Assembly (NCBI RefSeq): GCF_005406125.1
Contig: NZ_BIXZ01000015.1
Span: 1 to 34,602, forward strand
Reading direction: 5' to 3'
Length of the DNA stretch: 34,602 nucleotides
DNA from: Haloarcula mannanilytica
GTDB lineage: Archaea > Halobacteriota > Halobacteria > Halobacteriales > Haloarculaceae
The position numbers and the translations under genes are program-made. Positions 2,714 through 33,330 of this stretch are shown here, in pieces; within the stretch, counting starts at the first letter, position 1, and each line of letters starts with the position of its first letter. The notes below the pieces were generated by a model. It was not told where the DNA came from, ran no database searches, and worked only from the letters and a program-made list of their open reading frames with translations.

Positions 2714-2756
2714 GCGGTATATTTATTGGTTTCAACCAGTTACAATAAGTTACAAT
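2714..2756 (+). promoter_or_regulatory. Promoter and tandem 9-bp operator of the toxin-antitoxin pair
   Basis: A TATA-like motif GGTATATTTATT lies at about 2716-2727. Two identical copies of AGTTACAAT follow at 2738-2746 and 2748-2756, one helical turn (10 bp) apart. The second copy overlaps ATG 2755. A tandem site on one DNA face over the transcription start is a plausible autoregulatory binding site for the winged-helix antitoxin encoded next. Confidence 0.5.
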
Positions 2757-3174
2757 GCCTGTTTCGATAGACGACCATGACCCGGATGTCGATCTACGGC
2801 CGGGAACAACTAAGTCGGACATCGTCGCGTTCCTCTATCGACACGATGAGTATGGGTACAGCCCGCAGGACCTCCGCAATGAACTCGATATACCGCATGG
2901 GACAGCGAAAGTCACACTAAAACGACTGTACGACAGCGGATATATTGACAAGACCCCGGACGGGTACTACCATGCTCGCCGAGACCGCGAGGATCTCTAC
3001 CGATACACAGCGGCACTGGACGGTCTTGACCGTATGTTCGCCACACACGAGGAACCGGACAGTACTGCCGAACTGGAAGACAATGACGCCGATGCTGAAT
3101 CGGCCACTCTCACTGACGATGATATCGACGAGGCTGTCGACCTACTCGATGATGCGGATGGGGACAATCCGTGA
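2755..3174 (+). CDS. Winged-helix antitoxin/regulator
   Basis: A 139-residue acidic protein. Residues 18-70 form a MarR/VapB-like winged helix (sequence around SPQDLRNELDIPHGTAKVTL is the recognition helix, followed by a wing with GYYHA). Residues 95-139 are a strongly acidic tail, likely disordered, of the kind antitoxins use to bind and block a partner toxin. Its stop codon overlaps the GTG start of the MazF-like gene, which implies translational coupling. I infer that it neutralizes that toxin and represses the operon through the repeats over its own start. Confidence 0.75.
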   Translation: MPVSIDDHDPDVDLRPGTTKSDIVAFLYRHDEYGYSPQDLRNELDIPHGTAKVTLKRLYDSGYIDKTPDGYYHARRDREDLYRYTAALDGLDRMFATHEEPDSTAELEDNDADAESATLTDDDIDEAVDLLDDADGDNP

Positions 3175-3512
3175 AATATCCGTCCGGCACACTCGTCTGG
3201 GTAAGCCCAGATCCGCACACAAAGAAAGATCAACGGCCCGTTGTTGTCGTCCGGCATCGAGACCGTCCCTATAGTTCCGTCGAGTGTACGGTAATGTGCC
3301 TCGGGCATGGATCGCAGACTGAGAACCATCGCACGCCAAAACTTGAGGAAGACATGCACTATACGGGAATCTCGTTCTCGAGTTCGACGTACCTTCTCCC
3401 GTGGTCGATTCACACGATTCCGCCGGGGGCGATTCTTCCTGGCGAGCAGGGCCAGCTGACACAGGAGGGGAAGAAACTCGTTGTGAGAGAGTTCGCGAAA
3501 ATGATGAAGTGA
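3171..3512 (+). CDS. PemK/MazF-like toxin (endoribonuclease)
   Basis: A 113-residue protein with the features of the PemK/MazF barrel: an N-terminal beta-strand with GTLVWVSPDP, then RPVVVVR, and a later strand giving a Thr/Ser-rich segment before LPWSIHTIP. In this family it cleaves mRNA at short motifs and halts growth when the antitoxin is lost. The GTG start at 3171 overlaps the antitoxin TGA (GTGA), so the start is fixed by coupling. The haloarchaeal version is divergent and the usual catalytic Arg and Thr cannot be assigned with certainty. It likely acts as a plasmid addiction or phage-response module. Confidence 0.72.
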   Translation: MKYPSGTLVWVSPDPHTKKDQRPVVVVRHRDRPYSSVECTVMCLGHGSQTENHRTPKLEEDMHYTGISFSSSTYLLPWSIHTIPPGAILPGEQGQLTQEGKKLVVREFAKMMK

Positions 3513-3584: not shown

Positions 3585-5330
3585 CTACAACATCTCTTTC
3601 AGCCGATCTCGAAGTGGTTTCATTGGTTCCTTGACCTGCTCTTCCACCGCATCAGCTTGCTTTGCCTGTCCTTTCCACCAGTGCTTTTTCGCAACTATCA
3701 CACACTCTCCCGTTTCCATGCGTGTCAGCTCACCGGCTGTGATCGGACGGCGATCTTCAGTCCGAGTAGTGTGGCTCTGTGTCGTCTGATACGACCCGCC
3801 GGTCTGACTTTTCGACCGCGAGCGTGACTGCGATACTGTTTGTTCTCGCTCTTTCCCGATTTCCGTTTGAATGTACCGCGTCGTCTGTTCATCGCCGGGC
3901 TGGAAGTACAGACCCTGCGGGCAGTTTCCTAACACTGCTGCCGACTCATCGCCATAGACGGCGTCGAGCTGCCCGACCGTCTGTGCCCCAATCATGACTC
4001 GTGCATCCTCACTTCGCCCCCGAGCTGCAAGCCCCGGTAACTCTGTTATCGGCGGGAGAGAGTCAATCTCGTCCAAGATGAAATTTGTCGGCGTTGCCGA
4101 GGACCGGGCAATCCGGATTGTCCAGTTAAGCAGCACTTGGTACATCGGAGCAGCCTTGGTCGCCATCGGTCCAGAGCGAATCAACAGCACTCGCCCGTTG
4201 GGATTTTCGACATACTCTCGAACGGAAAACTCACCATCAGTCTTGAATTGACCAGTAAATACATCTCCGACATTTTGTGTGAGTTCTGTGTAGACGTTCT
4301 CTGAGCCGCTGTTATCTCCTTGCCTAATCTTCTGTGCAGCAGTACGAAGGTCATCGTACTTATTCAGCCGTGTATGTATCTCGTCCTTCGGTTCGTGTAC
4401 CAGATTATAGATATCGTCGTGGCCAAGTTGGCCAACCGCATCTTGCTTTTCAGCTTCCCGATGGAGATATTTTAGACAGGCAGTAAACACGCTCTCTGCC
4501 TTGCGATGGAATGGATTATCTCCGTCAGCCTCTCCGAACACAGACCGTGCAATCTCTTGATAATCCTCTTCTCTTTCAACATCCTGAAAGAGATTCCAGC
4601 GGACATCCGTCTCTTCAACCCCGACTCGAAGCACCTCAAACCCACGTTCTCGATAGAATTGTTCGAAGTCGTTTCCAGACTCGTGTACAATGACTGCCGT
4701 CCCCTCATCGTGGGGATACTGCTGTGAAAGGAGTTGCATTCCGGTTGTCTTCCCACTCCCGCTCTCACCGAGTACCGCCGTGGAGATGTCTTGCCGGAGT
4801 CTGGGTAGTGCCGGAATATCGTCTCCGTCTGTATATTCATCTGAGGTGGCCGATATATCTTCCATCGGCACGACAAATTCGTCAGACTCTCTGATGTACT
4901 TGGGTTCTTTCAGATCAAAGATGTTGTCGCCCCAGCGTCGGGTGAGGGGCAGGCTCGCTATCGCGACGCTGAATGCGGCATATGGCCCCAAAAAGAGGAC
5001 ATCAGGGATGCCTGCGAACCCGACACCAGCGATAGACAGTCCGAGCACCTCGCCAATGAAGACGAGCGGGGCCATAATGTGTGCAAATAGGATTACAAGG
5101 ATCGGCCAGAGTTTGCCTTGCAGCAACGCACCGGCGAAGACGACACTCCCCAGCAGCGCATAACAGGGATAGATCCACCACCAGAGCCGAAACCGACGTA
5201 ATTTCGGCTGGTCCCATTCGACGTACCACCATGGAACCAGCAACCGTGGCAGCGTCATTGTAAGTAGAACATCGATGAATATCTCCCCGAAACTCTCCTG
5301 CCGTTTGCTCGTCTTTGTCTCAGATGTCAT
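3585..5330 (-). CDS. VirD4/TraD-type coupling protein (conjugation ATPase)
   Basis: A 581-residue membrane ATPase. Hydrophobic segments at about residues 48-70, 75-100 and 105-128 anchor the N terminus. A Walker A motif GESGSGKTT lies at 188-196 and a Walker B NFILDEID at 416-423, followed by a conserved ARGRSEDARVMIGAQ stretch (about 436-450). This is the VirD4/TrwB family, which links the relaxase-DNA complex to a transfer channel and pumps DNA. It is the last gene of the mobilization operon and overlaps the relaxase gene by 11 nt. No VirB4-type ATPase or other channel gene is present, so transfer would depend on a channel supplied by the host or another plasmid. The region looks less GC-rich than its neighbours. 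Confidence 0.85.
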   Translation of the reverse strand: MTSETKTSKRQESFGEIFIDVLLTMTLPRLLVPWWYVEWDQPKLRRFRLWWWIYPCYALLGSVVFAGALLQGKLWPILVILFAHIMAPLVFIGEVLGLSIAGVGFAGIPDVLFLGPYAAFSVAIASLPLTRRWGDNIFDLKEPKYIRESDEFVVPMEDISATSDEYTDGDDIPALPRLRQDISTAVLGESGSGKTTGMQLLSQQYPHDEGTAVIVHESGNDFEQFYRERGFEVLRVGVEETDVRWNLFQDVEREEDYQEIARSVFGEADGDNPFHRKAESVFTACLKYLHREAEKQDAVGQLGHDDIYNLVHEPKDEIHTRLNKYDDLRTAAQKIRQGDNSGSENVYTELTQNVGDVFTGQFKTDGEFSVREYVENPNGRVLLIRSGPMATKAAPMYQVLLNWTIRIARSSATPTNFILDEIDSLPPITELPGLAARGRSEDARVMIGAQTVGQLDAVYGDESAAVLGNCPQGLYFQPGDEQTTRYIQTEIGKEREQTVSQSRSRSKSQTGGSYQTTQSHTTRTEDRRPITAGELTRMETGECVIVAKKHWWKGQAKQADAVEEQVKEPMKPLRDRLKEML

Positions 5331-5838
5331 CGTAGCCCTCCTGTGCTTGAGTCACTTCGCGCTCTTGCTCCGCCGTGACACTCCGTTCTTGAACGCGCTC
5401 TCTACTTCTGAGCCGTGTGCGCTCCCGAAAGCGCTCTCGTGTCTGTTCTCGAAGGTTGGTCAGATCGTCTGTCTCCATGTGTAGATCTCGTTGTTTGCCG
5501 ATCGCAGCGACGTGTGCGTGTGATTTTCCTGATTCTGGACGAGCGTGGACACCGTAGACGTACTCGACAGAGGGTTTCTCTGCTTTCCAGTCGTTGAGCG
5601 TTGAGCGAGTACACTGGTCAATTTCTGCTGCAGTGTAGCCCGCATCCGGATCAGGCGCAATGATGAACTGGCGCTGCATATCGGCTGTCTCAGACCGCTC
5701 GACGAACGCTTCAATTTCTTTTTCGCTCAGCTTGCGGCCAGTCGAATCTCGGATCTCGACTGTCCGCTCTGCATCTTCACTGATGTAGGTGATCAGGTTG
5801 CCGGCGCTGCCTGTCTGGAAGTCCGATTTCACGATCAT
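5320..5838 (-). CDS. Small relaxase-like mobilization protein
   Basis: A 172-residue protein with the layout of a MOB-type relaxase N-terminal domain. Tyr18 in NLITYISE fits the nucleophile; residues around FIIAPDPDA (58-66) match the usual beta-strand; His98, His107 and His109 (GVHAR and SHAHVAAIG) make the three-histidine metal site. The C-terminal third is charged, Arg/Glu-rich and probably helical. ATG 5838 is chosen because it overlaps the upstream TGA (ATGA). It would nick the plasmid at oriT and carry the strand to the coupling protein. It is much shorter than bacterial relaxases and has no helicase or primase domain. Confidence 0.75.
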   Translation of the reverse strand: MIVKSDFQTGSAGNLITYISEDAERTVEIRDSTGRKLSEKEIEAFVERSETADMQRQFIIAPDPDAGYTAAEIDQCTRSTLNDWKAEKPSVEYVYGVHARPESGKSHAHVAAIGKQRDLHMETDDLTNLREQTRERFRERTRLRSRERVQERSVTAEQEREVTQAQEGYDDI

Positions 5839-6305
5839 TCGAACTCCCAATCCCGGTCATCAGATTTTGCCGAAGCACTACTCTCGGTCTCAGACGGCGT
5901 GGGATTCTGTTCCCGGGCGCTCTCGATATCACCGCCAACTGCGTCCATGTCCTCTCGGAGCCGTTCGGTGCCAACATTGAGGGCGTGTTGTCGCTGTGGA
6001 TCGTCATATTCGTCTTTGACGAGTTCCCAGACTGCTATCGAATAGACGCCTGATTTCGCGACGAGGTCCTCGAGGCCTTCCGTGGCTTCGGCAACCTCAT
6101 CCCGTGCCTCGGCGACAAGTTCCTGAATACGCTGTTCGGCCCGATGTTCACGCGCCTGGTCATCGACAGCTCCGTCGTGGATGTGCTGGTCGAGAACCTG
6201 TGCAATATAGGTTGAGGCAGAGACATCTTCAGCCTCTGCTCGCCGCTCGATTTCACGCGCTACGTCGCCGTCGACGTAGGTCGTGAGCTGCTCATTTCGT
6301 CCCAT
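5835..6305 (-). CDS. Ribbon-helix-helix relaxosome accessory protein (MobC-like)
   Basis: A 156-residue protein. Residues 1-45 carry a ribbon-helix-helix signature: a strand QLTTYVDGDV, then helices ending in STYIAQVL. Residues 50-85 are a Glu/Ala/Arg-rich probable coiled coil. The C-terminal tail is acidic and disordered. MobC-type proteins of this design bind near oriT and assist the relaxase. As first gene of the mobilization operon, coupled to the relaxase by ATGA, it probably also represses the operon. A 14-bp perfect palindrome lies 17 bp upstream of its start and is a natural binding site. Confidence 0.72.
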   Translation of the reverse strand: MGRNEQLTTYVDGDVAREIERRAEAEDVSASTYIAQVLDQHIHDGAVDDQAREHRAEQRIQELVAEARDEVAEATEGLEDLVAKSGVYSIAVWELVKDEYDDPQRQHALNVGTERLREDMDAVGGDIESAREQNPTPSETESSASAKSDDRDWEFE

Positions 6306-6604
6306 CGCGTTAGCAGTCCTTGCCTTCGCGAAGGCTGTGGTTTTGACCTATGGGCAAGTTAAAGAGTTGCAGCACTCCCTCTTTATTCGCTCTACGTCTG
6401 GTGGTTTTACCTGCAGTATACAGAGGTCGTGCTGCAGAATGTGCAGTACAAGAATACGGGTCTTGGAGGGTTGCAAAGTGCGGTCGATTCCAGCGCACAC
6501 ACCTGAGTTTTCACCCTGATATAAAATGCGTTACCAGACCACGGTGAAAGTGAACGACTCAAAAATATTTTATACTCTGCTTTGACTGTGGCATCTACCT
6601 GTCC
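6306..6604. other. Non-coding region upstream of the mobilization operon; candidate oriT
   Basis: About 300 bp lie between the mobilization operon start and the next gene. They contain the palindrome at 6322-6335, several AT-rich patches (for example around 6560-6580) and no convincing gene. Because oriT usually sits next to the relaxosome genes, this is the best place to look for it. I see no sequence I can match to a known nick site. Confidence 0.4.
6322..6335. promoter_or_regulatory. 14-bp perfect palindrome, likely RHH-protein operator
   Basis: GCCTTCGCGAAGGC is perfectly self-complementary and sits 17 bp upstream of the start of the ribbon-helix-helix gene. Such proteins bind short palindromes as dimers of dimers, so autoregulation or relaxosome assembly at this site is likely. 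Confidence 0.5.
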
Positions 6605-12906: not shown

Positions 12907-14115
12907 ATTTCAACCGCTAAAGCGGCCGTCTGCAACAGTTCGCCGTGATCCACGATTTCGACGGCTTTACCCCTTCAACCCCACAAGGGTCCGTCTGTAA
13001 CGCCGTTTTCGCGGACACTATCGCCATCATACCCGCGGCTTCAACCCCACAAGGGTCCGTCTGTAACCAGCCATCAGATGCCCCTCACGATTTTGCGGAG
13101 CTTCAACCGCCCGAGGGTCCGTCTGTAACGCGTCCAGCCACACCCACAACAGGACTTCGGGCCGCCGCTTCAACCGCCCGAGGGTCCGTCTGTAACGTGT
13201 GTGATAGTGGAACAGGAGGGGTTCTGCCGGGTGCTTCAACCCCACAAGGGTCCGTCTGTAACGCGTCCTGCTTGTCCATGTATCGCTCTTTCCCCAGCGC
13301 TTCAACCGCCCAAGGGTCCGTCTGTAACCCAGCAAGCACGTCCGTGTAGTCGGTGACGCGGACGCTTCAACCGCCCAAGGGTCCGTCTGTAACGATGATT
13401 CGGGCGAGTGTGGACACGCTTCGGGAGGCTTCAACCGCCCAAGGGTCCGTCTGTAACTCGAAGCCGAATCACCGTTGACCACGACGGCCCGCTTCAACCG
13501 CCCAAGGGTCCGTCTGTAACCCCGGCGGCGTCGATGCTGGGCAGGTCCGGATCTTGGCGCTTCAACCCCACAAGAGTCCGTCTGTAACGTAGAACTGCCC
13601 GCTGGCGTTCTGGTCGATCTTTCTGCTTCAACCCCACAAGAGTCCGTCTGTAACGTAGAACTGCCCGCTGGCGTTCTGGTCGATCTTTCTGCTTCAACCC
13701 CACAAGAGTCCGTCTGTAACGTTTGTCGAGGACTCCGAGGACCTGATAATCCGGACAAAGCTTCAACCCCACAAGAGTCCGTCTGTAACTGGCGTACCTC
13801 CGTCGGGAGACGGGGGAGTGGATCGCTTCAACCCCACAAGAGTCCGTCTGTAACCGTCGTACGTGGGGCTTTCGGACCGGCCGACGCCGCTTCAACCCCA
13901 CAAGAGTCCGTCTGTAACGGAGCACACAGTGACACAGGATCCAACGGTCTACGTGCTTCAACCCCACAAGAGTCCGTCTGTAACCTCCTATCCGCGGCTT
14001 GAGGAGTGGGCCGAGCGCGGGCTTCAACCCCACAAGAGTCCGTCTGTAACCAGATTTTGACGGGTCATACTGACTGCTCGAACACGCTTCAACCCCACAA
14101 GAGTCCGTCTGTAAC
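12907..14115 (-). CRISPR. CRISPR array 1, type I-B, 19 repeats and 18 spacers
   Basis: Thirty-nucleotide repeats alternate with 33-38-nt spacers. Read on the minus strand a repeat begins GTTACAGACGGAC and ends GTTGAAGC, the haloarchaeal I-B type whose last eight bases become the crRNA 5' handle. The leader lies at the high-coordinate end, so the newest spacers are near 14086. Going from the leader outward, repeats 14086 to 13559 (nine) carry CCCCACAAGAG on the plus strand, 13491 to 13299 (four) CCGCCCAAGGG, 13233 CCCCACAAGGG, 13167 and 13100 CCGCCCGAGGG, then 13038 and 12972 CCCCACAAGGG. The outermost copy at 12907-12936 is decayed. Two neighbouring spacers (13589-13624 and 13655-13690) are identical. 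Confidence 0.97.
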
Positions 14116-14230
14116 CATGCCCGATTTCCGGAGCACAGCCTATCTCTAGCGTGGTTTCACTTCACTATTTTCGTCGACCGGCAATACCCCCTGAACCCCT
14201 GGGGGGTCGACGATAGCTGCAGAAATTGCT
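14116..14230 (-). promoter_or_regulatory. Leader of CRISPR array 1
   Basis: This segment is nearly identical to 24989-25090 at the same end of array 2 and so is the shared leader, reading on the minus strand into the array. It contains an inverted repeat TCGTCGACC (14171-14179) and GGTCGACGA (14205-14213) flanking a C/G-run, and an AT-rich patch near 14160-14172 that may serve as the array promoter. Confidence 0.85.
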
Positions 14231-14519
14231 GGTCATCACTGGATACCGAGCAGTCGATATAACATTCGGTATCCATTCGACCATGGTGGACTCAGCATCT
14301 TAGAGCATCAACTGGAGTGTTTCCTTGATTTCAACAAGCGTTCCCTCGGTGACCTCCCCCTCGACGGAGCTTTGAACGTGTGTAAGAGACCGCAGAAGAA
14401 CTTGTGGAACCTTGGTGTCCGATCCGCCACACGTCGTAGACGATGATGGCATAGACGGATCATCACTGCTTCCAGAACAGGATGTACTCTGCACCGGTGA
14501 GCAAACCGTCCCGAGTGAT
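14231..14519. other. Gap between array 1 leader and cas3; no adaptation genes
   Basis: In the usual haloarchaeal I-B operon cas4, cas1 and cas2 follow cas3. Here only about 290 bp separate the cas3 stop from the leader, with no recognisable fragment of those genes. A small acidic ORF lies within it and is listed separately. Confidence 0.7.
14300..14452 (-). CDS. Possible small acidic protein downstream of cas3
   Basis: A 50-codon frame from ATG 14452; the same frame is open further upstream, overlapping the cas3 3' end. The C-terminal half (VPQVLLRSLTHVQSSVEGEV followed by a helix ending LQLML) has the composition of a haloarchaeal helical protein and two Cys precede it. It could be a small protein, the tail of a deleted gene, or chance. 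It lies where the adaptation genes would normally be. Confidence 0.3.
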   Translation of the reverse strand: MPSSSTTCGGSDTKVPQVLLRSLTHVQSSVEGEVTEGTLVEIKETLQLML

Positions 14520-17087
14520 TCACTCGGAGCGGCTACTACCGATGCCACGACCAGACACAGTATCGTACTCTACGGTCGCTTCTCTGGCATCTCGCATTAG
14601 GAGTTGGTCCGACTGGCCCGCATCACTGTCGACCCGAAGCGTCACGACAAGTGGCTTCAATTCCTCGAATACAGTTTTCGCCGTACTGAATTTGCCTGCC
14701 TCCCGCAAATTCTGATACTCCTCGTATCGTTGCCTGTCTTCTGTGGAACACAGAAGTACGACATCTTGCGTCGCGTAGTCGTCCTCGATGAGTGATGCGT
14801 TTCGGAGTGGCTCCCCTGCAGCGCTGTTGAAGTGTTCCACTAACCGGTCAGACCGCTCTGACGTCCGACGTTGGTGATGTAACTCACCGTAGTATGCCTT
14901 CACTCCTGTCGAAATAAGCTCAGCTTCGGGAATGGCGGCCCCATGTTCAGCTTGCAAGCTTGCGAGCGCTTGGCGTGCTGGCCGAAGCAGTGATCGCTGC
15001 CCGTAGATCAACTCCGATGGCGGTACAGTCGTCGCATCGTTGGCCGACGCCAACCGCCACACGGTGACTGGGCTAGTCGAGCCACTGAACTCTCGGTTAC
15101 ACCGACCAGCTGCTTGGACGAGTGCAGGTACGGGGGCGAAGTCACGGTAGAGTCGGTCAAAGCTCACGTCAACTCCGGCTTCGATGAGTTGGGTTGAGAT
15201 GGTCATGACGGACCACCCCTCGAACGGTGTGGATATCTCCGAATCGAGCAACCGTCGAAGGGCTGCAAGCAGGAGTTTGCGGTCACGCGGACGGAGTTGC
15301 GTCGTCAGTGTGACCACGACGGTTCCGTCCCCAGCTGTAGCAAGCCCATCCGACACAAACTCGAGATATGCTTCGGCTGCTTCGTCGGTCATGTCCTCAA
15401 CATTGAGGGATGATGACTGATGGAATGCTTCCAGATCTGCACCCAGCGAAATCGTCGTCTCACAAGGTCGTGAATGGTCGAAGACGGTATCGGTCAGTGT
15501 CGCTGCACTCTCGATTGTGTTCGCGATCGCTAGCGTTGTCGTACCATCTGTAGTCATCTCGGACAGTGTTTCCGCCGCAGTTTCGTATGATAGTGTGCTG
15601 GAGTCGTCACCAGCCAGATAGCCGGCAGTACTGTCGTGCAGATTGAACGTTACTCGTGGATTCGACTCCAGGAACGAGACACACTCGTCAGTCACTGTGG
15701 TCAACGACGTCGGTGAAGGGAGCGACGGGGCCTGTTCGAAAATCTGTGGCTGTGTCGCAGTCATCATGATAATGGTTGTGTCGTATTCCCGGGTGAGGAA
15801 GGCTGCGAGCCGACCAACGAGGCTCCACCACTCAAGCGCAATTCCCTGTGGCTCATCAAGTATGATGACACTATCTTGTAGTGCTGGTATCTTCATCGCC
15901 TGCGTGTTCCCAGGCCCTGCAACACTCTCGAACAACTGCGTGAAGGTCGTCAACACGAGACCTGCCTGCCACGTTTCTGCGTACAGTGCTTCGCTACCGT
16001 CGTTAACGACCGTCCCCTCTTTGCTCTCTGTCGCCGTTGTCCGCGTATCGGCAAGGTGATGATGGACGGTATAGCGGTCACTTAGTGGATCAACATCCAG
16101 ATACTCTTGACAGACATCGTCGACTTGGTCGAGAATCGATGTATATGGGAGGGCGTAGATGGCTCGGCTGTTCCGCTGTTCGGCCAGCTCTAATGCTGCA
16201 CGAAGGCCAGTAAGGGTCTTCCCGAATCCCGTCGGGAGTTCTATTTGGAACAGCCGATCGCCTTCTCTGTGGCTCGTCAATAACTGTTGATAGGACTCTT
16301 CGTGGGCAGTACTCCGGAGTTGGTTCAGGGTCTGTTCGAGCGGCGTCTTGCCCGCTGGCAACCCTGCGACGGTCGTCCGTAGCCGTTCTAATTCCGGCCG
16401 CTGTGCTCCCTCTGGAAGTGCTATTTCGGCAGCATCGAGTTTATCGGCACAAACGAGAGTCGACCATGCTCTTAGGAGTGTTTCGTAGAACTGCTCGTCC
16501 AGTTTTTTTGGATCGACGAGCAGCTTTTGATAGGTGGCTGGAGTGTCAACAAGTACGCCATCCCACTCCAGTTGGCCGTTACTGGCGGCCGTGACAAGCG
16601 CATTGCCAGCAGGTGCGGCGTTCTGTTTGATGTCCTGTAGTTGCGCTCGTGGAGCGTCATATTGACTATCGACTTTGGATCCGTTCCCAGCATACTCCTC
16701 ATGAGCTGCCACAACAGTTGGAAGCACACCATGGTGTCTGGCGACAGCGTAGAAGCCAGCCGTCCGCATTGCTGCAGACACATCTAGCGAGTACAGGACA
16801 TGTGCCGCTAGTAATGCACTAACGAAGCCGTGATAGGTATGTTCGTCCCGGGGTGCGTGACTCCGCTCACCGGACTCGAGATACTGCTGAAAATACGTTG
16901 TCAGTTTGCCGGCATCGTGCGTCCATGCAAGCGCCCGCATGACTGTTTGCCAGTCGTCGCCATAGGCACTTTCAGCATCAGCTGGAACCAACTGCTCGGC
17001 GTTCGTGGCCACGCCGTGTAGGTGATCTCGAAGCGATTGCGAGGGACGCGCTCGATACGACTCCAGCAGGGACAGATTGGGGGCCAT
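14520..17087 (-). CDS. cas3: CRISPR helicase-nuclease Cas3 (type I-B)
   Basis: An 855-residue protein with an N-terminal HD nuclease and a superfamily 2 helicase. HD residues: His22/His24, His57-Asp58 (WTHDAGK), His83/His86 and His118-His119. Helicase motif I is PTGFGKT (285-291), motif II DEPQ (411-414), motif III MTATQP (442-447) and motif VI QAAGRCNR (658-665). After Cascade binds a target, Cas3 is recruited, nicks and degrades the displaced strand. All motifs appear intact. Its start overlaps the cas5 stop (TGATG). It is the last gene of the cas operon. Confidence 0.95.
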   Translation of the reverse strand: MAPNLSLLESYRARPSQSLRDHLHGVATNAEQLVPADAESAYGDDWQTVMRALAWTHDAGKLTTYFQQYLESGERSHAPRDEHTYHGFVSALLAAHVLYSLDVSAAMRTAGFYAVARHHGVLPTVVAAHEEYAGNGSKVDSQYDAPRAQLQDIKQNAAPAGNALVTAASNGQLEWDGVLVDTPATYQKLLVDPKKLDEQFYETLLRAWSTLVCADKLDAAEIALPEGAQRPELERLRTTVAGLPAGKTPLEQTLNQLRSTAHEESYQQLLTSHREGDRLFQIELPTGFGKTLTGLRAALELAEQRNSRAIYALPYTSILDQVDDVCQEYLDVDPLSDRYTVHHHLADTRTTATESKEGTVVNDGSEALYAETWQAGLVLTTFTQLFESVAGPGNTQAMKIPALQDSVIILDEPQGIALEWWSLVGRLAAFLTREYDTTIIMMTATQPQIFEQAPSLPSPTSLTTVTDECVSFLESNPRVTFNLHDSTAGYLAGDDSSTLSYETAAETLSEMTTDGTTTLAIANTIESAATLTDTVFDHSRPCETTISLGADLEAFHQSSSLNVEDMTDEAAEAYLEFVSDGLATAGDGTVVVTLTTQLRPRDRKLLLAALRRLLDSEISTPFEGWSVMTISTQLIEAGVDVSFDRLYRDFAPVPALVQAAGRCNREFSGSTSPVTVWRLASANDATTVPPSELIYGQRSLLRPARQALASLQAEHGAAIPEAELISTGVKAYYGELHHQRRTSERSDRLVEHFNSAAGEPLRNASLIEDDYATQDVVLLCSTEDRQRYEEYQNLREAGKFSTAKTVFEELKPLVVTLRVDSDAGQSDQLLMRDAREATVEYDTVSGRGIGSSRSE

Positions 17088-17851
17088 CAGACGAAACAGA
17101 CTGTCCGGTCGCCGACTGAATACGTCGGCGCACCGCTCGTCTCGACAGTGTCGGTCCCGGTGGCGTACGCGTACGAGACGAACCCGGTCGTGTGGCGACC
17201 AGTTTCGTTGGCGGCCATGAATGCCGGCGTCCGCTCCATCCGAAGTGGTTCGCCAGCCGTCGGTACGACATACTCTTCTGGGACCGTCGAATCGACAGCC
17301 GTCGCATCAGCATCGTTGGTTACCGTGTTGACGTCGACGTCGTCGACTCGAGCCAAACACTCTGACTTTCCGAGATACGGTGTGTATGTACTTCGGCCAG
17401 CCAACAGCATCTCCTTCAATTCGTTGTATGTGTCCGTTTCCGAGAGGACTAAATCAATACGGTAGGCTGGATCGACGATGTACTCGAAGGTCCGCCGCTT
17501 TCGCTCGGTCGCAATACGACCAGGATCGACCACAGTCTTCCCGGAGACGCCGTCGGCTGTCTGAATATCGCCTTCTTCGGTGGGCAGCGTAAGCTGCGGG
17601 ATCGCAATCGTCTCGAGGTCGGAACACGGCGTAACTGCAATTGCTGAGGCATCGGCAGCAAAGGTCTCGTAATAGGAGTTCCGTGGCCGACCGAGAATGG
17701 CGGCGACGAGACCAGCAATCGTCGTCCTGGGAATCACTCGGTAGGTCAGCTTCTCTGTCGTCGCATCGAGGCGACGAAAGTGCCCCCACGAGCCACTAAC
17801 GGTAAAGGAGAGGCACTCGCGGCCGCTCACATCAAGGTCCGTCGTCGTCAT
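17087..17851 (-). CDS. cas5: Cascade subunit Cas5 (type I-B)
   Basis: A 254-residue RAMP protein. The N terminus CLSFTVSGSWGHFRRLDA is the first strand and helix of Cas5, with the family motif TTIAGLVAAILGRPRNSYYE after it. The C-terminal Gly-rich strands complete the fold. Cas5 caps the crRNA 5' handle in Cascade and bridges Cas7 and Cas8b. It lies 3 bp after cas7 and overlaps cas3 by one base, consistent with a single transcript. Confidence 0.93.
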   Translation of the reverse strand: MTTTDLDVSGRECLSFTVSGSWGHFRRLDATTEKLTYRVIPRTTIAGLVAAILGRPRNSYYETFAADASAIAVTPCSDLETIAIPQLTLPTEEGDIQTADGVSGKTVVDPGRIATERKRRTFEYIVDPAYRIDLVLSETDTYNELKEMLLAGRSTYTPYLGKSECLARVDDVDVNTVTNDADATAVDSTVPEEYVVPTAGEPLRMERTPAFMAANETGRHTTGFVSYAYATGTDTVETSGAPTYSVGDRTVCFV

Positions 17852-17854
17852 CAG

Positions 17855-18883
17855 TCAGTCATCGCCGTAGACATCGATTTTGGCCACACTGTCAGCGCCC
17901 ACGGCTTCAGAGAGTGCCTCGATGAGAAACTCCTGACCGCCGGTCTCGTCACCGTCTGTCACCGTCAGGTGCCGGTTTGCGGTCACGTGTACAGTCTCAA
18001 TGTGGTCGCTGTGTGCTGCGAGGTCCTCAACGAGGTCGGAGATATCTAACTCGACATCGCTGATGTTCCGTAGCTTACTATCTGGCACGTCTTGAGCAAG
18101 TGCGAGTCCGTCGTCGAGGGTTCCAATGTGGAATTCGTCCGTCTCGTATTCAACACGCAGGTACAACTGAGGCTGGTGCCCCATCTTCGAGCGTGTCAGG
18201 GTCTGATTCTTCAACGCTCGCCAGAGGACTGAATCAAGTCGCTCGACGTCGGCTTCAGTGAGTCCGGTCGACTCGGCTCCCACTTCGTTGACCACGCCGT
18301 GGAACGGAACGAGGGCATACTGCAGCCGGTTGTCCGTCGCAAAGGTCCCCTGTTCGCTGTCACCACCGCTGGAAACAACTGTCGAGAGTTGTTTGGACTC
18401 GCTCTTCTGAACGACTGTGTTTAGACTACGGGCGTGAGAAAACTGCACTGGGCCAATGAACTGCCCAGGGAACCCGTCACCAATCTTGTCCTGAAAGTCC
18501 GATGAGAACGAACAAGTCGCGCCGAAGTACCGGACGTCAGCAGCGTTGTTCAGAAACGCATCGGCTGCCTCGTCACCAGTAATCTCCTCGAGTTCGTCAG
18601 CTTCGAGTCCAGTGACGCTGGTGAAGAGATCGTCACGGTCGATGGCACCATCATAGTCTGCCTTCGAGGGATTCTTGATGTAGATTTCGAGGCCGTCATC
18701 ATCCAGTTGATCGCGGATGTAGCGTTTCAGTCGGACGTCGGTGACGACGGCTTTCCCGGTCGTCTCGTCGATACGGGGTTTGTCGTTGGCCGATAGCGGA
18801 TTCCCGTTGGGGTTGGTGTCCTCTGCATCGTAGAGGAAAACAATCTCGGAGCGGTTCGCAACGGTATCAGTGGATTCAGTCAT
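17855..18883 (-). CDS. cas7: Cascade backbone subunit Cas7 (Csh2 family, type I-B)
   Basis: A 342-residue protein. It opens with EIVFLYDAEDTNPNGNPLS, the hallmark of the Cas7/Csh2 family, followed by RIDETTGKAVVTDVRLKRYIRD. A central GPVQFSHARSLN segment and a C-terminal strand pair are also typical. Several copies line the crRNA to form the filament of the complex. It follows cas8b by 6 bp and precedes cas5 by 3 bp. Confidence 0.95.
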   Translation of the reverse strand: MTESTDTVANRSEIVFLYDAEDTNPNGNPLSANDKPRIDETTGKAVVTDVRLKRYIRDQLDDDGLEIYIKNPSKADYDGAIDRDDLFTSVTGLEADELEEITGDEAADAFLNNAADVRYFGATCSFSSDFQDKIGDGFPGQFIGPVQFSHARSLNTVVQKSESKQLSTVVSSGGDSEQGTFATDNRLQYALVPFHGVVNEVGAESTGLTEADVERLDSVLWRALKNQTLTRSKMGHQPQLYLRVEYETDEFHIGTLDDGLALAQDVPDSKLRNISDVELDISDLVEDLAAHSDHIETVHVTANRHLTVTDGDETGGQEFLIEALSEAVGADSVAKIDVYGDD

Positions 18884-18889
18884 TGGTAA

Positions 18890-21094
18890 TTAGTCGTCGG
18901 CAGCAGCGGCGTCAGCGTGGTCATCAGCCTGTGCAACGCGCGTGTCGTTGAGCCCGTAGGAGATGCCCAGACTATAGAGCCACTGCAGCTCAGCATCGGA
19001 CATTGTCCACTCGTTGGGATCGGCCGACAGCATGGCGTCGGTCAACCGGCTTGTGTACCGGTTGTTTGTCCAGTAGGACCGATCTTCTTCGGCTTCAGCG
19101 TAGGAATGGTCCATCTGCAGGACTTCTTTCGTGACTTCCTTGACCGTCTGCTTGGTCAGGTAGTCAATTGGATACCGACGGACCAATGTCGAGGAAACGT
19201 TCTCCCGAGACTGGAAGGCTGTGATTCGGCCGACTAACCCACCCAGCAGGAAGACGGCACGCGTATGGTCGGCATCGAGTGCGTCGTGATTGTCAAGAAA
19301 CGATTCGAGTCGGTCTGTTCGTGAGTCTGGCTCGTCTGTCATCGCACTTGTGGTGAAGGTGAAGGTCGTGTTGGTGGATTCGAGCATGTCTGCATCGCTG
19401 AGTGCTCGAAGTTGTGTGTACTGTTCAACGACTGATCGCTGTGGGAACGCGGTGTAATCGCTATCGCTGTCGAACGACTCATTTTGATCCTGCACCAACT
19501 GGTGGATATACTCCTCCAGCAGTGGTTGGAGTGGAATTTTGCCTTCGGTCAGGAGGGCCCGAACACGCCGCATTTCGTGGTCATCGATTTCGCCGACACT
19601 AGGTGTCTCGCTGGCCTGTCGACTGGTTCGTGTCGGTTCAGTCGTCCGACCGAAGTAATCGCCATACAGGATTCGCCGAACGAGTGGCAGTCCCAGACCG
19701 AGATATGGACTACTCTCAGGGGAGGGATAGGTGCCGAAGATGCCATCACCTTCGAAGATCGCACTTCGCGTGACGTCGTTGTGTGCGTCTTCGAGCGCGG
19801 CTGGCTGGAAGATCCCATCGAGCGTGTCGAAGTAGACGCGGTCAGGGTTCCCGGTGACCTGGAGTACGATAGCGAAGCGGACGCGGTCCCAGTGGTCTTC
19901 GTCGACGAGATCGTCGAAATCTGTCTCGCCATCGGCAGCCGCGCCATCTGTGACTTCTCGGACCAATGTTTCGAGTTCCGTATCGAAGGTTCCATCAGGG
20001 CCAGTTTCCGCGTCACGGAGCGCTGTGTAGATGGTATCGTAGAACCACTCGAACGTGTCCGTGTCGAGTTCGTCCCGCCGCATAGCGAGATACGGGAGCA
20101 CGTACAACCGTCGGTTATTCCCCAGGCCACGGAAGAAGTCCTCGAAGATTGAGTCCGCCGCCGCAACTGCAGCGGCCGTGTCAAACGACAGCGGTCGAGT
20201 TCGCCACGCGTCGCTTCCTTTGGTGTCGATGTCCGGGAAGTGTTCGCGCTGTTTCTTCCCGTACATGCCGAACAAGCCCGGCGAACCGCCGGTGACCTGT
20301 TCGTTGTTACCGGTTACGTACCCGACGCCGTCGCCACTGGCGTCCTCAACGGAAATACTTTCGAGCCGGGCGGATTTTTTCTCGACCATCACGTCGTTTA
20401 GCACCGGAATCTCGCCAGGATAGCGGTACTCGTCTGCTTCGGGGTCCTTCACTTTGACAGTGATGAGTGAGTCAAACTCTTCATCTTCGCCGCCAGCGAG
20501 CTCGACGAACGCCTCTCCAAGTGCCTGCATCTGCTCATCGTCGTCACCCAGCGTCGCCAGCCCATCCAGCAGGCTGGCGTCGGCCTCTGATGCCTGCTCA
20601 CGGACGGTTTCTGCGTACTCTGACTGTGCCCAAGCGGTAAACCTGTCTTGGACGTTGTTGGTTCCCCATGCGTCATCACGGAACCCGGCGATGTGGTGGG
20701 CATCGGCTCCTTTGTGGGTCGTGATGGAGTAGTCGGTCATGCTACTCGTCTTGTTCGCTGGATATGCGTGCCCGACTCGGAATCGGTCTCCGCGCGTATA
20801 GGTGCCGATTTCTACGGGTCCGCCGTCCGAGTCCGGGCGTAACTGTGGGTTTTCCGGGTCCGACAGATCTGCGTAGACGGTGATGAGGCTGTCATCCGCT
20901 CCAAACAACTCACTCTTGGCACCCGGTGTCAGGTATGCGAGATGCTCCGGAGCCAGTTCCCAGTCGATATCACCCGACTGGACGGCACTGTACCAGTCAT
21001 AGAGCGAGTACTGCCACGCAACCTCGTAGAGTGAGGCCGGCAGCCGTGGCTGGAACCGCTTGACGGCCGTCTCCGCGTAGTCGTTATCTGCCAT
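18890..21094 (-). CDS. cas8b: Large Cascade subunit Cas8b (type I-B)
   Basis: A 734-residue protein, from ATG 21094, which overlaps the cas6 stop by 11 nt. The frame extends upstream but those residues would lie inside cas6. Position, size and strongly acidic sequence fit haloarchaeal Cas8b, the subunit that recognises the PAM and recruits Cas3. Identifiable parts include GDRFRVGHAYPANKTSSMTD near residue 107, and a helical C-terminal region. In type I-B the small Cas11 subunit is known to arise from internal translation of this gene; whether that happens here cannot be read from the sequence alone. Confidence 0.9.
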   Translation of the reverse strand: MADNDYAETAVKRFQPRLPASLYEVAWQYSLYDWYSAVQSGDIDWELAPEHLAYLTPGAKSELFGADDSLITVYADLSDPENPQLRPDSDGGPVEIGTYTRGDRFRVGHAYPANKTSSMTDYSITTHKGADAHHIAGFRDDAWGTNNVQDRFTAWAQSEYAETVREQASEADASLLDGLATLGDDDEQMQALGEAFVELAGGEDEEFDSLITVKVKDPEADEYRYPGEIPVLNDVMVEKKSARLESISVEDASGDGVGYVTGNNEQVTGGSPGLFGMYGKKQREHFPDIDTKGSDAWRTRPLSFDTAAAVAAADSIFEDFFRGLGNNRRLYVLPYLAMRRDELDTDTFEWFYDTIYTALRDAETGPDGTFDTELETLVREVTDGAAADGETDFDDLVDEDHWDRVRFAIVLQVTGNPDRVYFDTLDGIFQPAALEDAHNDVTRSAIFEGDGIFGTYPSPESSPYLGLGLPLVRRILYGDYFGRTTEPTRTSRQASETPSVGEIDDHEMRRVRALLTEGKIPLQPLLEEYIHQLVQDQNESFDSDSDYTAFPQRSVVEQYTQLRALSDADMLESTNTTFTFTTSAMTDEPDSRTDRLESFLDNHDALDADHTRAVFLLGGLVGRITAFQSRENVSSTLVRRYPIDYLTKQTVKEVTKEVLQMDHSYAEAEEDRSYWTNNRYTSRLTDAMLSADPNEWTMSDAELQWLYSLGISYGLNDTRVAQADDHADAAAADD

Positions 21095-21857
21095 GGTTGG
21101 TGATGTTGATGAATCCGAAGCCCAGAGAATTCCGCTCCCCAAGGCCGACATCCAGTGCCAGATTCAGATGCCGGCGGTGGTCATCGTCGCGAACGCTGTA
21201 ATCGAAGCGCCACTTGCTCAGAACCCACGTCTCTTCACGTCCTGTGGTCGGCGTGACCGGGATAGCGAAGGTCTTGATGAGTTCGTACCCGTCGAACAGA
21301 TCGCCATCGACATCGGAGGGGCCTGGCAGATAGTCGGGCATGTAGAGCCGATGCTTCTTATCCAGGTTTGCCTCGATCTGGGTCCGGAACGGCTCCATCG
21401 TATGTTCGGGCCGCCAGAACTCCGCTTCATCGTGGTCGACGTCGATATCGTACTCGTCGAAGCGCCACGGTGGAATCCGGACCAAGACGCCCGTCCCGGT
21501 TTCGAGTGTGCCAGTGGTTCCAGGCTCGCCGACGTCCGGTGACAGCGGCGTGACCTCGTCGACGTGGAAGGGCATCTCGCCGATGTTCAGCTCACGGTCG
21601 TGAGTGAGGTCCTCGGCGATATGGGCAAGCAGTGACTCCTCGGGTGAGGCAACCAGCAGTGTTCGTTCGTCACCCTCCTCCATGTCCTGCGGTGGGAAGG
21701 GGTTACTGTAGACGAACGGCTTTGGCTGGTTCTCGTCGTGGAGTGCGTCGTACTGGCTGTCTTCGAGGGCCTGCCAGATGCGGCCCTGGAGCTTGTTGTG
21801 ATACGTGTTGTCGTAGGCGGCGTCTCTGCGTGCGTGGAGTCGTGCGAGGATCCGCAC
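21084..21857 (-). CDS. cas6: crRNA-processing endonuclease Cas6 (type I-B)
   Basis: A 257-residue RAMP nuclease that cuts each repeat to release crRNAs with an 8-nt 5' handle. The C-terminal Gly-rich loop GLGERNSLGFGFIN (238-251) is diagnostic. His40 in YDALHDENQPKPFVYSNPF lies where the Haloferax enzyme has its catalytic His. GTG 21857 is the start; a GAGGTGAT ribosome-binding motif lies about 10 nt upstream. First gene of the cas operon, so cas expression depends on the promoter between it and array 2. Confidence 0.93.
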   Translation of the reverse strand: MRILARLHARRDAAYDNTYHNKLQGRIWQALEDSQYDALHDENQPKPFVYSNPFPPQDMEEGDERTLLVASPEESLLAHIAEDLTHDRELNIGEMPFHVDEVTPLSPDVGEPGTTGTLETGTGVLVRIPPWRFDEYDIDVDHDEAEFWRPEHTMEPFRTQIEANLDKKHRLYMPDYLPGPSDVDGDLFDGYELIKTFAIPVTPTTGREETWVLSKWRFDYSVRDDDHRRHLNLALDVGLGERNSLGFGFINITNHGR

Positions 21858-21867
21858 CGGTCAAATC

Positions 21868-21928
21868 ACCTCTGTCGTTTGTGAGTGTTGCATAACACGT
21901 TAGTTGAGAATATCATGGCTTATAAATT
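21868..21928 (-). promoter_or_regulatory. cas operon promoter and ribosome-binding site
   Basis: A good TATA box TTTATAAG (minus strand) lies at about 21920-21927, and GAGGTGAT at about 21868-21875 precedes GTG 21857. Transcription should start near 21895, giving a short leader of about 40 nt. Unlike most genes here this one has a true Shine-Dalgarno motif. The decayed end of array 2 begins only 20 bp upstream of the TATA box. Confidence 0.6.
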
Positions 21929-21947
21929 CCATCTGACCACAGTGAAA

Positions 21948-24900
21948 GTAGTGACACCACAGGGGTCCGTCTGAAATCACCATTGGGTCGGTCAGGTCGA
22001 CTTCCATTCCGAGGCTTCAACAATTCACTGGTCCTTCTGAAACGGTTCGACGAGGATATAGTACGACTTGTCGGTCGCGTTGCTTCAATCGCCCAAGGGT
22101 CCGTCTGTAACGTCCGATGGTGACCATCCGAAGTCCGAGCTTCGCTTTGCTTCAACCGCCTAAGAGTCCGTCTGAAACCCGAAACGGATGATAAATCGGG
22201 ACTCCGGCGATTCCGCTTCAACCGCCAAAGGATCCGTCTGGAACGCTTGCACCCATTTGTCAGTCGGCAAACGACCAAGCTTCAACCGCCCAAGGGTCCG
22301 TCTGTAACTCCGGGCGATCCGGTGGTCGGCCGTCGAACGGACGCTTCAACCGCCCAAGGGTCCGTCTGTAACACCGGATTTATGCACGGTGTCCCACAGC
22401 CGAGACAACCTTCAACCGCCCAAGGGTCCGTCTGTAACTGGGCACTCGGTCGGGTTCCGGATGGCTGGTTCGTCCTTCAACCGCCCAAGGGTCCGTCTGT
22501 AACCTGCCTTCATTCGGTACAAAGAGAACGATGAGCAGTGCCTTCAACCGCCCAAGGGTCCGTCTGTAACGGACCCGGCCGCCCTGCCCGATATCGAGGA
22601 TCTTCCTTCAACCGCCCAAGGGTCCGTCTGTAACGATCTCCCGGGACCCGTCCAGCGTTCGAGCCTCCGGCCTTCAACCGCCCAAGGGTCCGTCTGTAAC
22701 AAGCCTGCATACAGCAACAGGCCGCCGACGAACGCCCTTCAACCGCCCAAGGGTCCGTCTGTAACTTCGGGAGGGTCAGGGGACCCGCTCAGGTTGTTGG
22801 CCTTCAACCGCCCAAGGGTCCGTCTGTAACTAGGCGCGCACCCAGCGTTTGATGGTCTGGTTGTCGCCTTCAACCGCCCAAGGGTCCGTCTGTAACAACA
22901 GTCATCGCTACCGAGTTGAACTTGTGGAAGGCCCTTCAACCGCCCAAGGGTCCGTCTGTAACCTGCTCGCTGACACCTCGGACCTCTCGCTCTCGACTTC
23001 AACCGCCCAAGGGTCCGTCTGTAACCTCGCTACGGGGTGGCGACGGTCAAACCATCAGACTTCAACCGCCCAAGGGTCCGTCTGTAACGACCCAAGAGCA
23101 AGACGACATTATCGCACAGATGACTTCAACCGCCCAAGGGTCCGTCTGTAACACCAGACCCAGCACAGCTTAGCAATGGGGCTTCGGCAACTTCAACCGC
23201 CCAAGGGTCCGTCTGTAACCAGGCCAAACATCACGAGCCCGACAGTCACCGGACTTCAACCGCCCAAGGGTCCGTCTGTAACACGCGGCTACAGGGCCGA
23301 CTCCAAGCGTTCTACGCTTCAACCGCCCAAGGGTCCGTCTGTAACAACCTCCAGGAGTTCGGCAGGTCGTTGACGCGGTTGCTTCAACCGCCCAAGGGTC
23401 CGTCTGTAACAAGAAGCGCTCGACGACCATCTCCGCTCTGGGATCGCTTCAACCGCCCAAGGGTCCGTCTGTAACTCCTGACTATCAACGAGTCGCTCGG
23501 AATAGTGCATGCTTCAACCGCCCAAGGGTCCGTCTGTAACCTGGCGTGACTGCGTTGTTGTCGCTGTTGTCGCTCGCTTCAACCGCCCAAGGGTCCGTCT
23601 GTAACAGTGTCGAAGCCACCTTCTCCTGCATGATCTTCGGGCTTCAACCGCCCAAGGGTCCGTCTGTAACGCTTCGTCTCGGATTCATTGTCGAACTCAA
23701 CAGCCTGCTTCAACCGCCCAAGGGTCCGTCTGTAACCGATGATTCGGGTGCTGACATGGTTGGGTCCTGAAAGCTTCAACCGCCCAAGGGTCCGTCTGTA
23801 ACCGGCGAATATATTCCCGTCGACGGTAGTATAATGCTTCAACCGCCCAAGGGTCCGTCTGTAACCACCACACTGTGACCGACCGAGTAGAGTACGGGAG
23901 GCTTCAACCGCCCAAGGGTCCGTCTGTAACCTTCTCGAAGGCCACCCGGACGCCGCCCAGGCCGACGCTTCAACCGCCCAAGGGTCCGTCTGTAACAATT
24001 GTGTCTGCAGCCGTTTTGTGGTATCTACTCCCGCTTCAACCGCCCAAGGGTCCGTCTGTAACGAAGCGCTGGAGGAGATACTCAAGCACATCCCGTCGCT
24101 TCAACCGCCCAAGGGTCCGTCTGTAACCGTTCCCGACCCCATTGCTGTAGTGGTATTTTTTGTAGCTTCAACCGCCCAAGGGTCCGTCTGTAACGCGTCT
24201 CGTAGGCATACCCGGCCTCACACCGGACGCGCTTCAACCGCCCAAGGGTCCGTCTGTAACTCTTGCTATCCCTTGGATCAGTCCGTAGATCAGCTCGCTT
24301 CAACCGCCCAAGGGTCCGTCTGTAACCGGCCAGGTAGCCGCCGTTGCCGCCGTTGTCGTTGTCGCTTCAACCGCCCAAGGGTCCGTCTGTAACGGAACCG
24401 ATGCCAGGGTACAACTCCCTCAAGGTGCGCTTCAACCGCCCAAGGGTCCGTCTGTAACTGGTAACTGATGGCACACACGGCGACCCACATCACAACGCTT
24501 CAACCGCCCAAGGGTCCGTCTGTAACTGTCTACCGAGTCCGCGGTCGGGGAGTCGAAGTGCTGCTTCAACCGCCCAAGGGTCCGTCTGTAACAGGCAACT
24601 GTCCTAACGCTGGGACACCTCGATCGGGCTTCAACCGCCCAAGGGTCCGTCTGTAACTGAACTGGAGGAATGGAAGGACCTCGCACAAAAGAAGGCTTCA
24701 ACCGCCCAAGGGTCCGTCTGTAACTTTCGTCGCCGCCAGCGCTCTGGACTGCTTCGACAAGCTTCAACCGCCCAAGGGTCCGTCTGTAACAACTCATCAC
24801 GCATCACCACCCATCGCCGCGAACGCCAGCTTCAACCGCCCAAGGGTCCGTCTGTAACACGTGCCGAACACGTAGGAGATCTCGCCGTTGGCGCTTCAAC

Positions 24901-24988
24901 CGCCCAAGGGTCCGTCTGTAACCTGGTGTTCGCGGAGTTCGATCAACAGGCTCTGGCGGCTTCAACCGCCCAAGGGTCCGTCTGTAAC
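21948..24988 (-). CRISPR. CRISPR array 2, type I-B, 47 repeats and 46 spacers
   Basis: Repeats of 30 nt, spacers mostly 33-38 nt, transcribed on the minus strand from the leader at 24989. Apart from the oldest copies the repeats carry CCGCCCAAGGG (plus strand). The oldest, leader-distal repeats are decayed: 21948-21977 and 22014-22043 are heavily changed, 22082, 22149 and 22215 mildly. The base at the repeat edge next to CTTC changes in blocks: G in repeats 3-7 (22082-22372), C in repeats 8-16 (22409-22962), A in repeats 17-21 (22996-23282) and G in repeats 22-47 (23316-24988). That base is the last base of the crRNA 5' handle. Confidence 0.97.
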
Positions 24989-25090
24989 CATGCCCGATTT
25001 CCGGGACACAGCCCATCTCTAGCGTGGTTTCACTTCACTATTTTCGTCGACCGGCAATATCCTCTCTACCCCCGGGGGGTCGACGAAACA
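24989..25090 (-). promoter_or_regulatory. Leader of CRISPR array 2
   Basis: Nearly identical to the array 1 leader for about 75 bp next to the first repeat (ATGCCCGATTTCCGG then TCTCTAGCGTGG on the plus strand). Here the inverted repeat is longer, TTTCGTCGACC at 25042-25052 and GGTCGACGAAA at 25078-25088. The pair of leaders implies both arrays were once fed by the same adaptation complex. Confidence 0.85.
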
Positions 25091-27238: not shown

Positions 27239-28060
27239 ATGGCTTCGGAAACGGACGATGTAGACGAAAAAGACGTATTCATATCGTATTCACACTCCGA
27301 TTCTAAAGAGGTAGCAAAGCTCCTGGGCCAAGAATTGACCTCAATGGGCATAGCGGTCTGGCTTGATGATATCGAAATGTCGATTGGAAGTAGCATTCGC
27401 GAATCAATTGACGACGGTCTTACTCAATCGGAATATGGGGTTGTTATTCTCTCTAAAGGCTATTTTGAGGGAACATCTGAATGGGAGTTGAATGGTCTTG
27501 TTGAGAAACACACCAACGAAGATGATGTGATTCTCCCCCTCTGGCATAATATCGGTCACGACTACGTTTACCAGCAAAGTCCGAGCCTCGCTGATTTAGT
27601 CGCCGAAGAGGTTGACAAGGAGAATGTGCAGAGTGTCGCCGCTTCAATCTACCAAATAGTAAGGGAAGATCGGGGAGAAATTGATGATTGGGGCGGAGAT
27701 ACAGGTACTGATGGAAGTCCTGGATTCATAGATATAGATATCACATTTCAGGGACGGTTTGACCCCAAGGTTGGCAAAGAGGTGACCATAGAGTCTTGGC
27801 GTAATCATAACGCTTCTAATCTCACATCACTCGAAGCGACAGAAATTCGGGACGAGGATAGGGGGATCGACTACACAAGCAGTTCCAAGGGCACAACAAT
27901 GACCGTCAAGCGGATTGATGACGAGCCTCTCAACGGCGTTATATCCGACATTCAAGAGCTTCGGTCTAACAAAGCGGAGTTCACGATTCGAGTTGAGGAA
28001 TCTCGATTGGAGGAACTTTCGGATGATCGAGACGACTATAAATCTGGGTTCGTCCAGTAA
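27239..28060 (+). CDS. TIR-domain protein, probable NAD-degrading defence effector
   Basis: A 273-residue protein. Residues 10-145 are a TIR domain: box 1 VFISYSHSD (13-21), WLDDIEMSIGSSI (41-53) and the helix SEWELNGLVEK, where Glu83 is in the position of the catalytic glutamate of NADase TIRs. Residues 158-273 form a beta-rich domain (FIDIDITFQGRFDPKVGKEV and onward) that I do not recognise; in such proteins this part usually senses infection. Prokaryotic TIR proteins typically deplete NAD+ or make cyclic nucleotides to stop phage growth. Enzymatic activity here is inferred. Confidence 0.88.
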   Translation: MASETDDVDEKDVFISYSHSDSKEVAKLLGQELTSMGIAVWLDDIEMSIGSSIRESIDDGLTQSEYGVVILSKGYFEGTSEWELNGLVEKHTNEDDVILPLWHNIGHDYVYQQSPSLADLVAEEVDKENVQSVAASIYQIVREDRGEIDDWGGDTGTDGSPGFIDIDITFQGRFDPKVGKEVTIESWRNHNASNLTSLEATEIRDEDRGIDYTSSSKGTTMTVKRIDDEPLNGVISDIQELRSNKAEFTIRVEESRLEELSDDRDDYKSGFVQ

Positions 28061-33124: not shown

Positions 33125-33330
33125 GCGCAGCGAATGGCAGGATCCCTCCACGCTACCGAAGGGTCAGTCGACTCTCCAGTAGATCTGGCGGTCGGGCTAG
33201 CGGGCCCGGCCCGTTCGAGAGCCATCACTCTCACCTGCGACATGCGCTGTGGAGCGCTATCTCACCGTGACTGCCGTCGCGATGATGGGCGATACTCCAG
33301 CAGCGCACTCGCTCGTGGGGGCGATAGCGG
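33125..33330. other. Leader region of the replication gene
   Basis: About 200 bp without a supported gene. An in-frame TAG at 33325-33327 closes the replication frame upstream, so ATG 33331 is the first possible ATG start. I see no strong TATA box or Shine-Dalgarno motif. Confidence 0.5.

Follow-up and report, generated by a model that had tools for sequence, protein, structure and literature searches.

A small HUH relaxase, a coupling ATPase and a predicted oriT in a probable minimal mobilization module of a Haloarcula plasmid

Introduction

Does a small haloarchaeal plasmid carry its own relaxase, together with the DNA site on which that relaxase would act? The question is raised by three adjoining genes of Haloarcula mannanilytica, located within a stretch of 34,602 nucleotides (hereafter the window), which is identical with one contig (NZ_BIXZ01000015.1) of an assembly of 4.2 Mb in total. 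Guglielmini and colleagues (2011) found pNG500 as the sole archaeal conjugative plasmid of such kind, and suspected the presence of unrecognised archaeal relaxases (PMC3158045). According to papers of 2023-2025, archaeal genomes and conjugative plasmids have no apparent relaxase homologues (PMC9905601), the known conjugative plasmids of archaea under discussion have yielded no relaxase (PMC12857230), and archaeal mobilizable elements could not be searched for, their relaxases being unknown (PMC11389934). In the literature searched, which covered few subscription papers, no paper on a haloarchaeal oriT was found. The three genes described here very probably represent a haloarchaeal plasmid MOB module that would work like a bacterial MOBP-type relaxosome, as judged from sequence comparison, a structure model and analogy with bacterial systems.

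Organization of the three-gene module

The module is encoded on the minus strand, in the following order of transcription.

5835..6305, minus strand: RHH accessory protein, 156 aa, predicted relaxosome component (PHROG Arc-like repressor, 1.2e-3; model matches RHH structures)
5320..5838, minus strand: HUH relaxase, 172 aa (active-site conservation, PF03432 relatives, fold match to MobA of R1162)
3585..5330, minus strand: VirD4/TrwB-like coupling ATPase (T4CP), 581 aa (Pfam PF10412 and PF12696)

All three reading frames are intact. The stop of the RHH gene and the start of the relaxase gene share ATGA (5838-5835), a 4-bp overlap, while the relaxase and VirD4 genes overlap by 11 bp, and translational coupling of the three genes is therefore plausible. 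The relaxase start was set at 5838, the upstream TTG at 5850 not being a conserved start. The first-pass annotation had described an RHH protein, a 172-residue protein with an H-HxH motif and a Tyr, and a VirD4-like ATPase as an adjoining and coupled set, and all three were indeed found in place and overlapping. The gene order is not a matter of chance, because an RHH gene lies upstream of the relaxase gene at 41 of 41 relaxase loci compared, and a VirD4 gene downstream at 39 of the 41.

The 581-aa protein is, as seen from its sequence, a clear TrwB/TraD-type coupling protein, with matches to TrwB_AAD_bind (PF10412, 8e-38) and TraG-D_C (PF12696, 6.7e-21), hydrophobic segments at the N-terminus and the Walker A motif GESGSGKT. 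The model of the RHH protein (pLDDT 66.6) matches RHH structures including NikA, and RHH1 of pNG500 is near NikA-like proteins (1.4e-5).

The relaxase and its family

The 172-aa protein carries Tyr18 (motif I) and H98-x8-H107-x-H109 (motif III), in keeping with the one catalytic Tyr close to the N-terminus and the three-His metal site expected of PF03432/MOBP-type relaxases. In a set of 40 distinct homologues from haloarchaea, every sequence has Tyr18 and His98, 39 have His107 and 37 have His109, the remaining three carrying Gln at position 109. The window relaxase itself has Gln57 at a position where most relatives carry His. The homologues range from 168 to 263 aa in length, and the size of 172 aa is thus ordinary for the family, so that the rarity once attributed to so small a relaxase does not hold. 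In one lineage, relaxase and VirD4 are fused into a single open frame of 690 codons (L106:5851-7920), in which motif III has the form HxQ rather than HxH.

By itself the window relaxase gave no match above cut-off in Pfam and NCBIfam, and a PDB sequence search by family profile gave low-complexity matches only. Among its relatives, however, 17 of 19 match Pfam Relaxase PF03432 (E <= 0.1), and the pNG500 homologue scores above the curated cut-off of this family (28 bits vs 24.6; 2.9e-6). Several relatives are already named 'relaxase' in public annotation. Those relatives that carry a name come chiefly from Haloarcula; none was found in phage records and viral contigs, and a search for relatives outside Halobacteria among 295 genomes of the phylum, a thinly sampled set, matched only two Haloarcula genomes.

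The AlphaFold model of the relaxase, built from a 12-row alignment, has a pLDDT of 79.6. Foldseek alone gave no match at E <= 0.001 for this model, and the fold match rests on VIA-align 2, by which Foldseek's own candidates were re-aligned. The top 19 structural rows were then all relaxases, the best being MobA of R1162 (Z 10.9, rmsd 3.0, 137 residues aligned), followed by NES (Z 10.3) and then F TraI, pKM101 TraI, TrwC and MobM. Lower down came a viral Rep domain, also HUH (7kik, Z 8.1); the best-scoring structure unrelated to these had Z 7.0. Fold prediction and conservation of the His and Tyr residues, the two points on which the first-pass annotation could have been refuted, both bear it out: as modelled, the 172-aa protein has an HUH relaxase fold, and it belongs to an archaeal branch of a recognised superfamily.

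A candidate oriT upstream of the RHH gene

The aligned regions upstream of the module contain a conserved TTTAnCTTGCC with AAAYCGCMAGACG ahead of it. In the plasmid the following elements were recognised (the predicted nick is marked by ^).

6351-6436, minus strand: candidate oriT, two boxes and an inverted repeat (conserved motif)
6395..6409, minus strand: oriT box 1, TAAAACCACCAGACG (consensus AAAYCGCMAGACG), with fixed spacing to box 2 across genera
6351..6366, minus strand: oriT box 2 and predicted nick region, CTCTTTAACTTG^CCCA (conservation; MOBP analogy)
6368..6436, minus strand: inverted repeat (ssDNA fold; repeat search)

The arms of the inverted repeat are TGCAGCAC (6436-6429) and GTGCTGCA (6375-6368), extended by CCTCT (6426-6422) with AGAGG (6382-6378), and 13 nt separate its end from the predicted nick. 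In folding of the single strand the hairpin had a z of -2.43, three of 200 shuffled sequences being equally good, and in the repeat search the inverted repeat had p=0.005. Pairing between box 1 and box 2 was also considered and rejected, since the two boxes do not pair in the window. The first-pass annotation had suggested 6306-6604 as the DNA substrate of the relaxase, a proposal that gains support at the level of sequence from the two-box motif and hairpin within it. Relaxase and oriT, two parts expected of a mobilizable plasmid, are both recognisable on this plasmid, the candidate oriT by its conserved motif and inverted repeat.

The nick regions of MOBP systems read (C/T)ATCCTG(C/T) and are preceded by a variable inverted repeat (PMC3772185). 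Because box 2 resembles (C/T)ATCCTG^(C/T), the nick is predicted, by analogy, between 6355 and 6354 of the minus strand. The sequence common in relatives, TTTATCTTG^CC, is one core base off TATCCTG^C, and the window has TTTAACTTG^CC.

The starts of the two boxes are 44 bases apart in most genera. A position-weight scan also located the two boxes in pNG500 and in its relatives, where they lie 11 bases, or one helical turn, further apart, so that the gap between the boxes is either 28 or 39 nt. Lineage-specific inverted repeats stand just ahead of the nick region (Fisher p ~1e-7, for 20 sites that are related and non-independent). A recognisable motif is absent at L048, a relative from a neighbouring genus, and at several distant loci.

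When 391 Halobacteria genomes were searched with the exact composite pattern, 15 matches were obtained in 10 genomes (none with the reversed control), and for 12 of these, comparison with relaxase positions placed a relaxase of the family no more than 3.5 kb away, it being noted that the pattern was partly derived from loci counted here, with genomes G025 and G256 outside the derivation set. The remaining three matches all belong to G256 (L090:11279, L090:12960 and L091:1202), with neither relaxase nor VirD4 detected nearby in the stretches examined, and they are possibly oriT-only mobilizable elements. In the 39-nt class, several more sites have VirD4 or a piece of VirD4 beside them but lack a neighbouring relaxase, and have the appearance of decayed modules.

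RHH proteins frequently autoregulate. This background, and the location of the site before the RHH gene in minimal modules, would suit a two-box DNA that serves only as an RHH-bound regulatory site, the real oriT being elsewhere, but such an arrangement is unlikely. The motif usually precedes the RHH gene in minimal modules but follows VirD4, at the operon end, in full ones, as in pNG500 where it stands about 300 bp past VirD4; one minimal module (L049) is an exception in having it after VirD4. Since the location differs between the two kinds of module, the motif is not merely a promoter, and the promoter-only reading was set aside. In addition, in G256 the site stands apart from module genes within the stretches examined, and box 2 is akin to MOBP nick regions.

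Minimal and full transfer systems

Two layouts were recognised among the relatives of the candidate relaxosome. The full layout, found on pNG500 and on another contig (C13) of the same assembly as the window, consists of a pilin, three membrane proteins, VirB4, RHH1, RHH2, relaxase and VirD4. The minimal layout, RHH, relaxase and VirD4 only, is found on the window plasmid, on pHsi55 and on one Haladaptatus plasmid, of which the relaxase is more distant than that of pHsi55. On this Haladaptatus plasmid (L044; NZ_CP085343.1, 21,460 bp) the gene set is present twice, about 10.7 kb apart, representing either a dimer or an assembly artefact.

No homologue of the pilin, membrane proteins or VirB4 of pNG500 was detected among the ORFs of the complete window plasmid. 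As no pilin, channel or VirB4 match is present, the gene content fits a plasmid that is mobilizable but not self-transmissible, in agreement with what the first-pass annotation had proposed; this property is predicted from the genes. Related RHH, relaxase and VirD4 genes and a related oriT motif also belong to the full system on C13, the VirB4 of which shares 90% identity with the pNG500 protein. Because this full system co-occurs with the plasmid, and both carry a related predicted oriT of the 28-nt class, the VirB4/pilin system on C13 is the likely helper channel, although the assignment is a guess. More VirB4-like ATPases, each split in two and unlike the C13 VirB4, are encoded on contigs C1, C9 and C10 of the same genome (L067-L072), and possibly belong to another transfer system.

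The lack of channel genes on the plasmid, and the decayed copies with VirD4 and motif found in other genomes, might also be expected of a remnant of a conjugative plasmid that no more transfers DNA. This is rather improbable, however, given that the three frames and the active-site residues are intact, that another strain retains the same minimal set on pHsi55 (relaxase 91% identical), and that a more distant one is retained on the Haladaptatus plasmid.

A probable replication gene and other genes of the plasmid

The two ends of the contig share an exact overlap of 127 bp, and owing to these 127 identical bases the contig is most likely a closed circular plasmid of 34,475 bp. A plus-strand gene for a 1126-aa protein spans the junction (33328-34475 joined to 1-2233). 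Its product is 84% identical to a protein of pHsi55 which in turn has a match to a PHROG replication protein (1.4e-26), suggesting that this gene is likely the replication gene of the plasmid, separate from the relaxase. That the small HUH protein is instead a rolling-circle Rep, with the conserved DNA as its replication origin, is the least probable reading. In its favour, the fold is common to HUH Reps as well, Rep family PF23343 is weakly matched by two members of the family, and the Rep domain 7kik is among the structural matches. Against it, the gene sits with RHH and VirD4 genes at nearly all loci, full conjugation operons included, the best structural rows are relaxases, and the plasmid has this separate junction-spanning gene.

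Next to the mobilization module, a MarR-like winged-helix gene overlaps a small gene whose product weakly matches PemK/MazF (E 0.036) on the plus strand (2755-3512), the two forming a possible toxin-antitoxin pair. Type I CRISPR-Cas genes flanked by two repeat arrays, in which 18 and 46 repeats were recognised, occupy 12969-25020, including cas3, Cas8-like TM1802 and cas6 (Pfam) as well as two neighbours that resemble cas5 and cas7; cas1 and cas2 were not seen in this region. The spacers were compared with the collected conjugation loci without any match, the best having nine mismatches, and a CRISPR link to these loci was rejected. A TIR-domain protein (Pfam TIR_2, 1.8e-16) is encoded at 27239-28060 on the plus strand, and is perhaps a defence gene.

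Proposed mechanism and significance

For the MOBP-like module, the following course may be proposed from knowledge of the families concerned. The RHH protein would bind the repeats of oriT within 6351-6436, and the relaxase, a bare HUH domain, would nick the minus strand near TTTAACTTG^CCCA via Tyr18, with His98, His107 and His109 holding the metal, and would remain attached to the 5' end. The VirD4 ATPase encoded on the plasmid would then deliver the relaxase-DNA complex to a channel encoded off the plasmid, presumably that of the C13 VirB4/pilin system in the same cell. If the strand assignment is true, transfer into the recipient should begin with the mobilization genes in minimal modules and end with them in full modules.

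pNG500 had already been named conjugative in 2011, and what is new is the predicted oriT and the proposed pairing of a minimal module with a helper. The balance of the observations leans slightly towards a bacteria-like economy of helpers and hitchers in haloarchaea, in which full plasmids, minimal relaxase-plus-VirD4 plasmids and oriT-only elements (the three G256 sites) would all use one MOBP-like archaeal branch of relaxases and one type of oriT. Since the relaxase family and its predicted nick site, both kinds of module and possible oriT-only elements all occur in culturable haloarchaea, the question of archaeal relaxases becomes directly testable.

Comparison with known systems

One of the closest known systems is that of pHsi55 from Haloarcula sinaiiensis, which shares the minimal RHH-relaxase-VirD4 set and the same oriT motif, but differs in its cargo, no CRISPR-Cas being annotated in the 40.5 of 55.3 kb examined; by MOB-suite it is typed as non-mobilizable. 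On pNG500 of Haloarcula marismortui, homologous RHH, relaxase and VirD4 genes are arranged in the same order with a related oriT motif. It differs from the window in the additional pilin, three membrane genes, VirB4 and second RHH gene, in the length of its relaxase (251 aa, including a long charged tail), and in the motif, which lies downstream of VirD4 with 39-nt spacing. With the bacterial MOBP/MOBQ relaxases (MobA of R1162, RP4 TraI and VirD2), the window relaxase shares one motif-I tyrosine, the H-HxH motif III and the HUH fold, and in the DNA an inverted repeat is likewise followed by a predicted nick region similar to YATCCTG. Identity is, however, very low (11% with MobA over the structural alignment), the nick region reads TTTAnCTTG^Y in contrast to YATCCTG^Y, and the haloarchaeal relaxase is a bare domain that lacks a primase or long C-terminal part.
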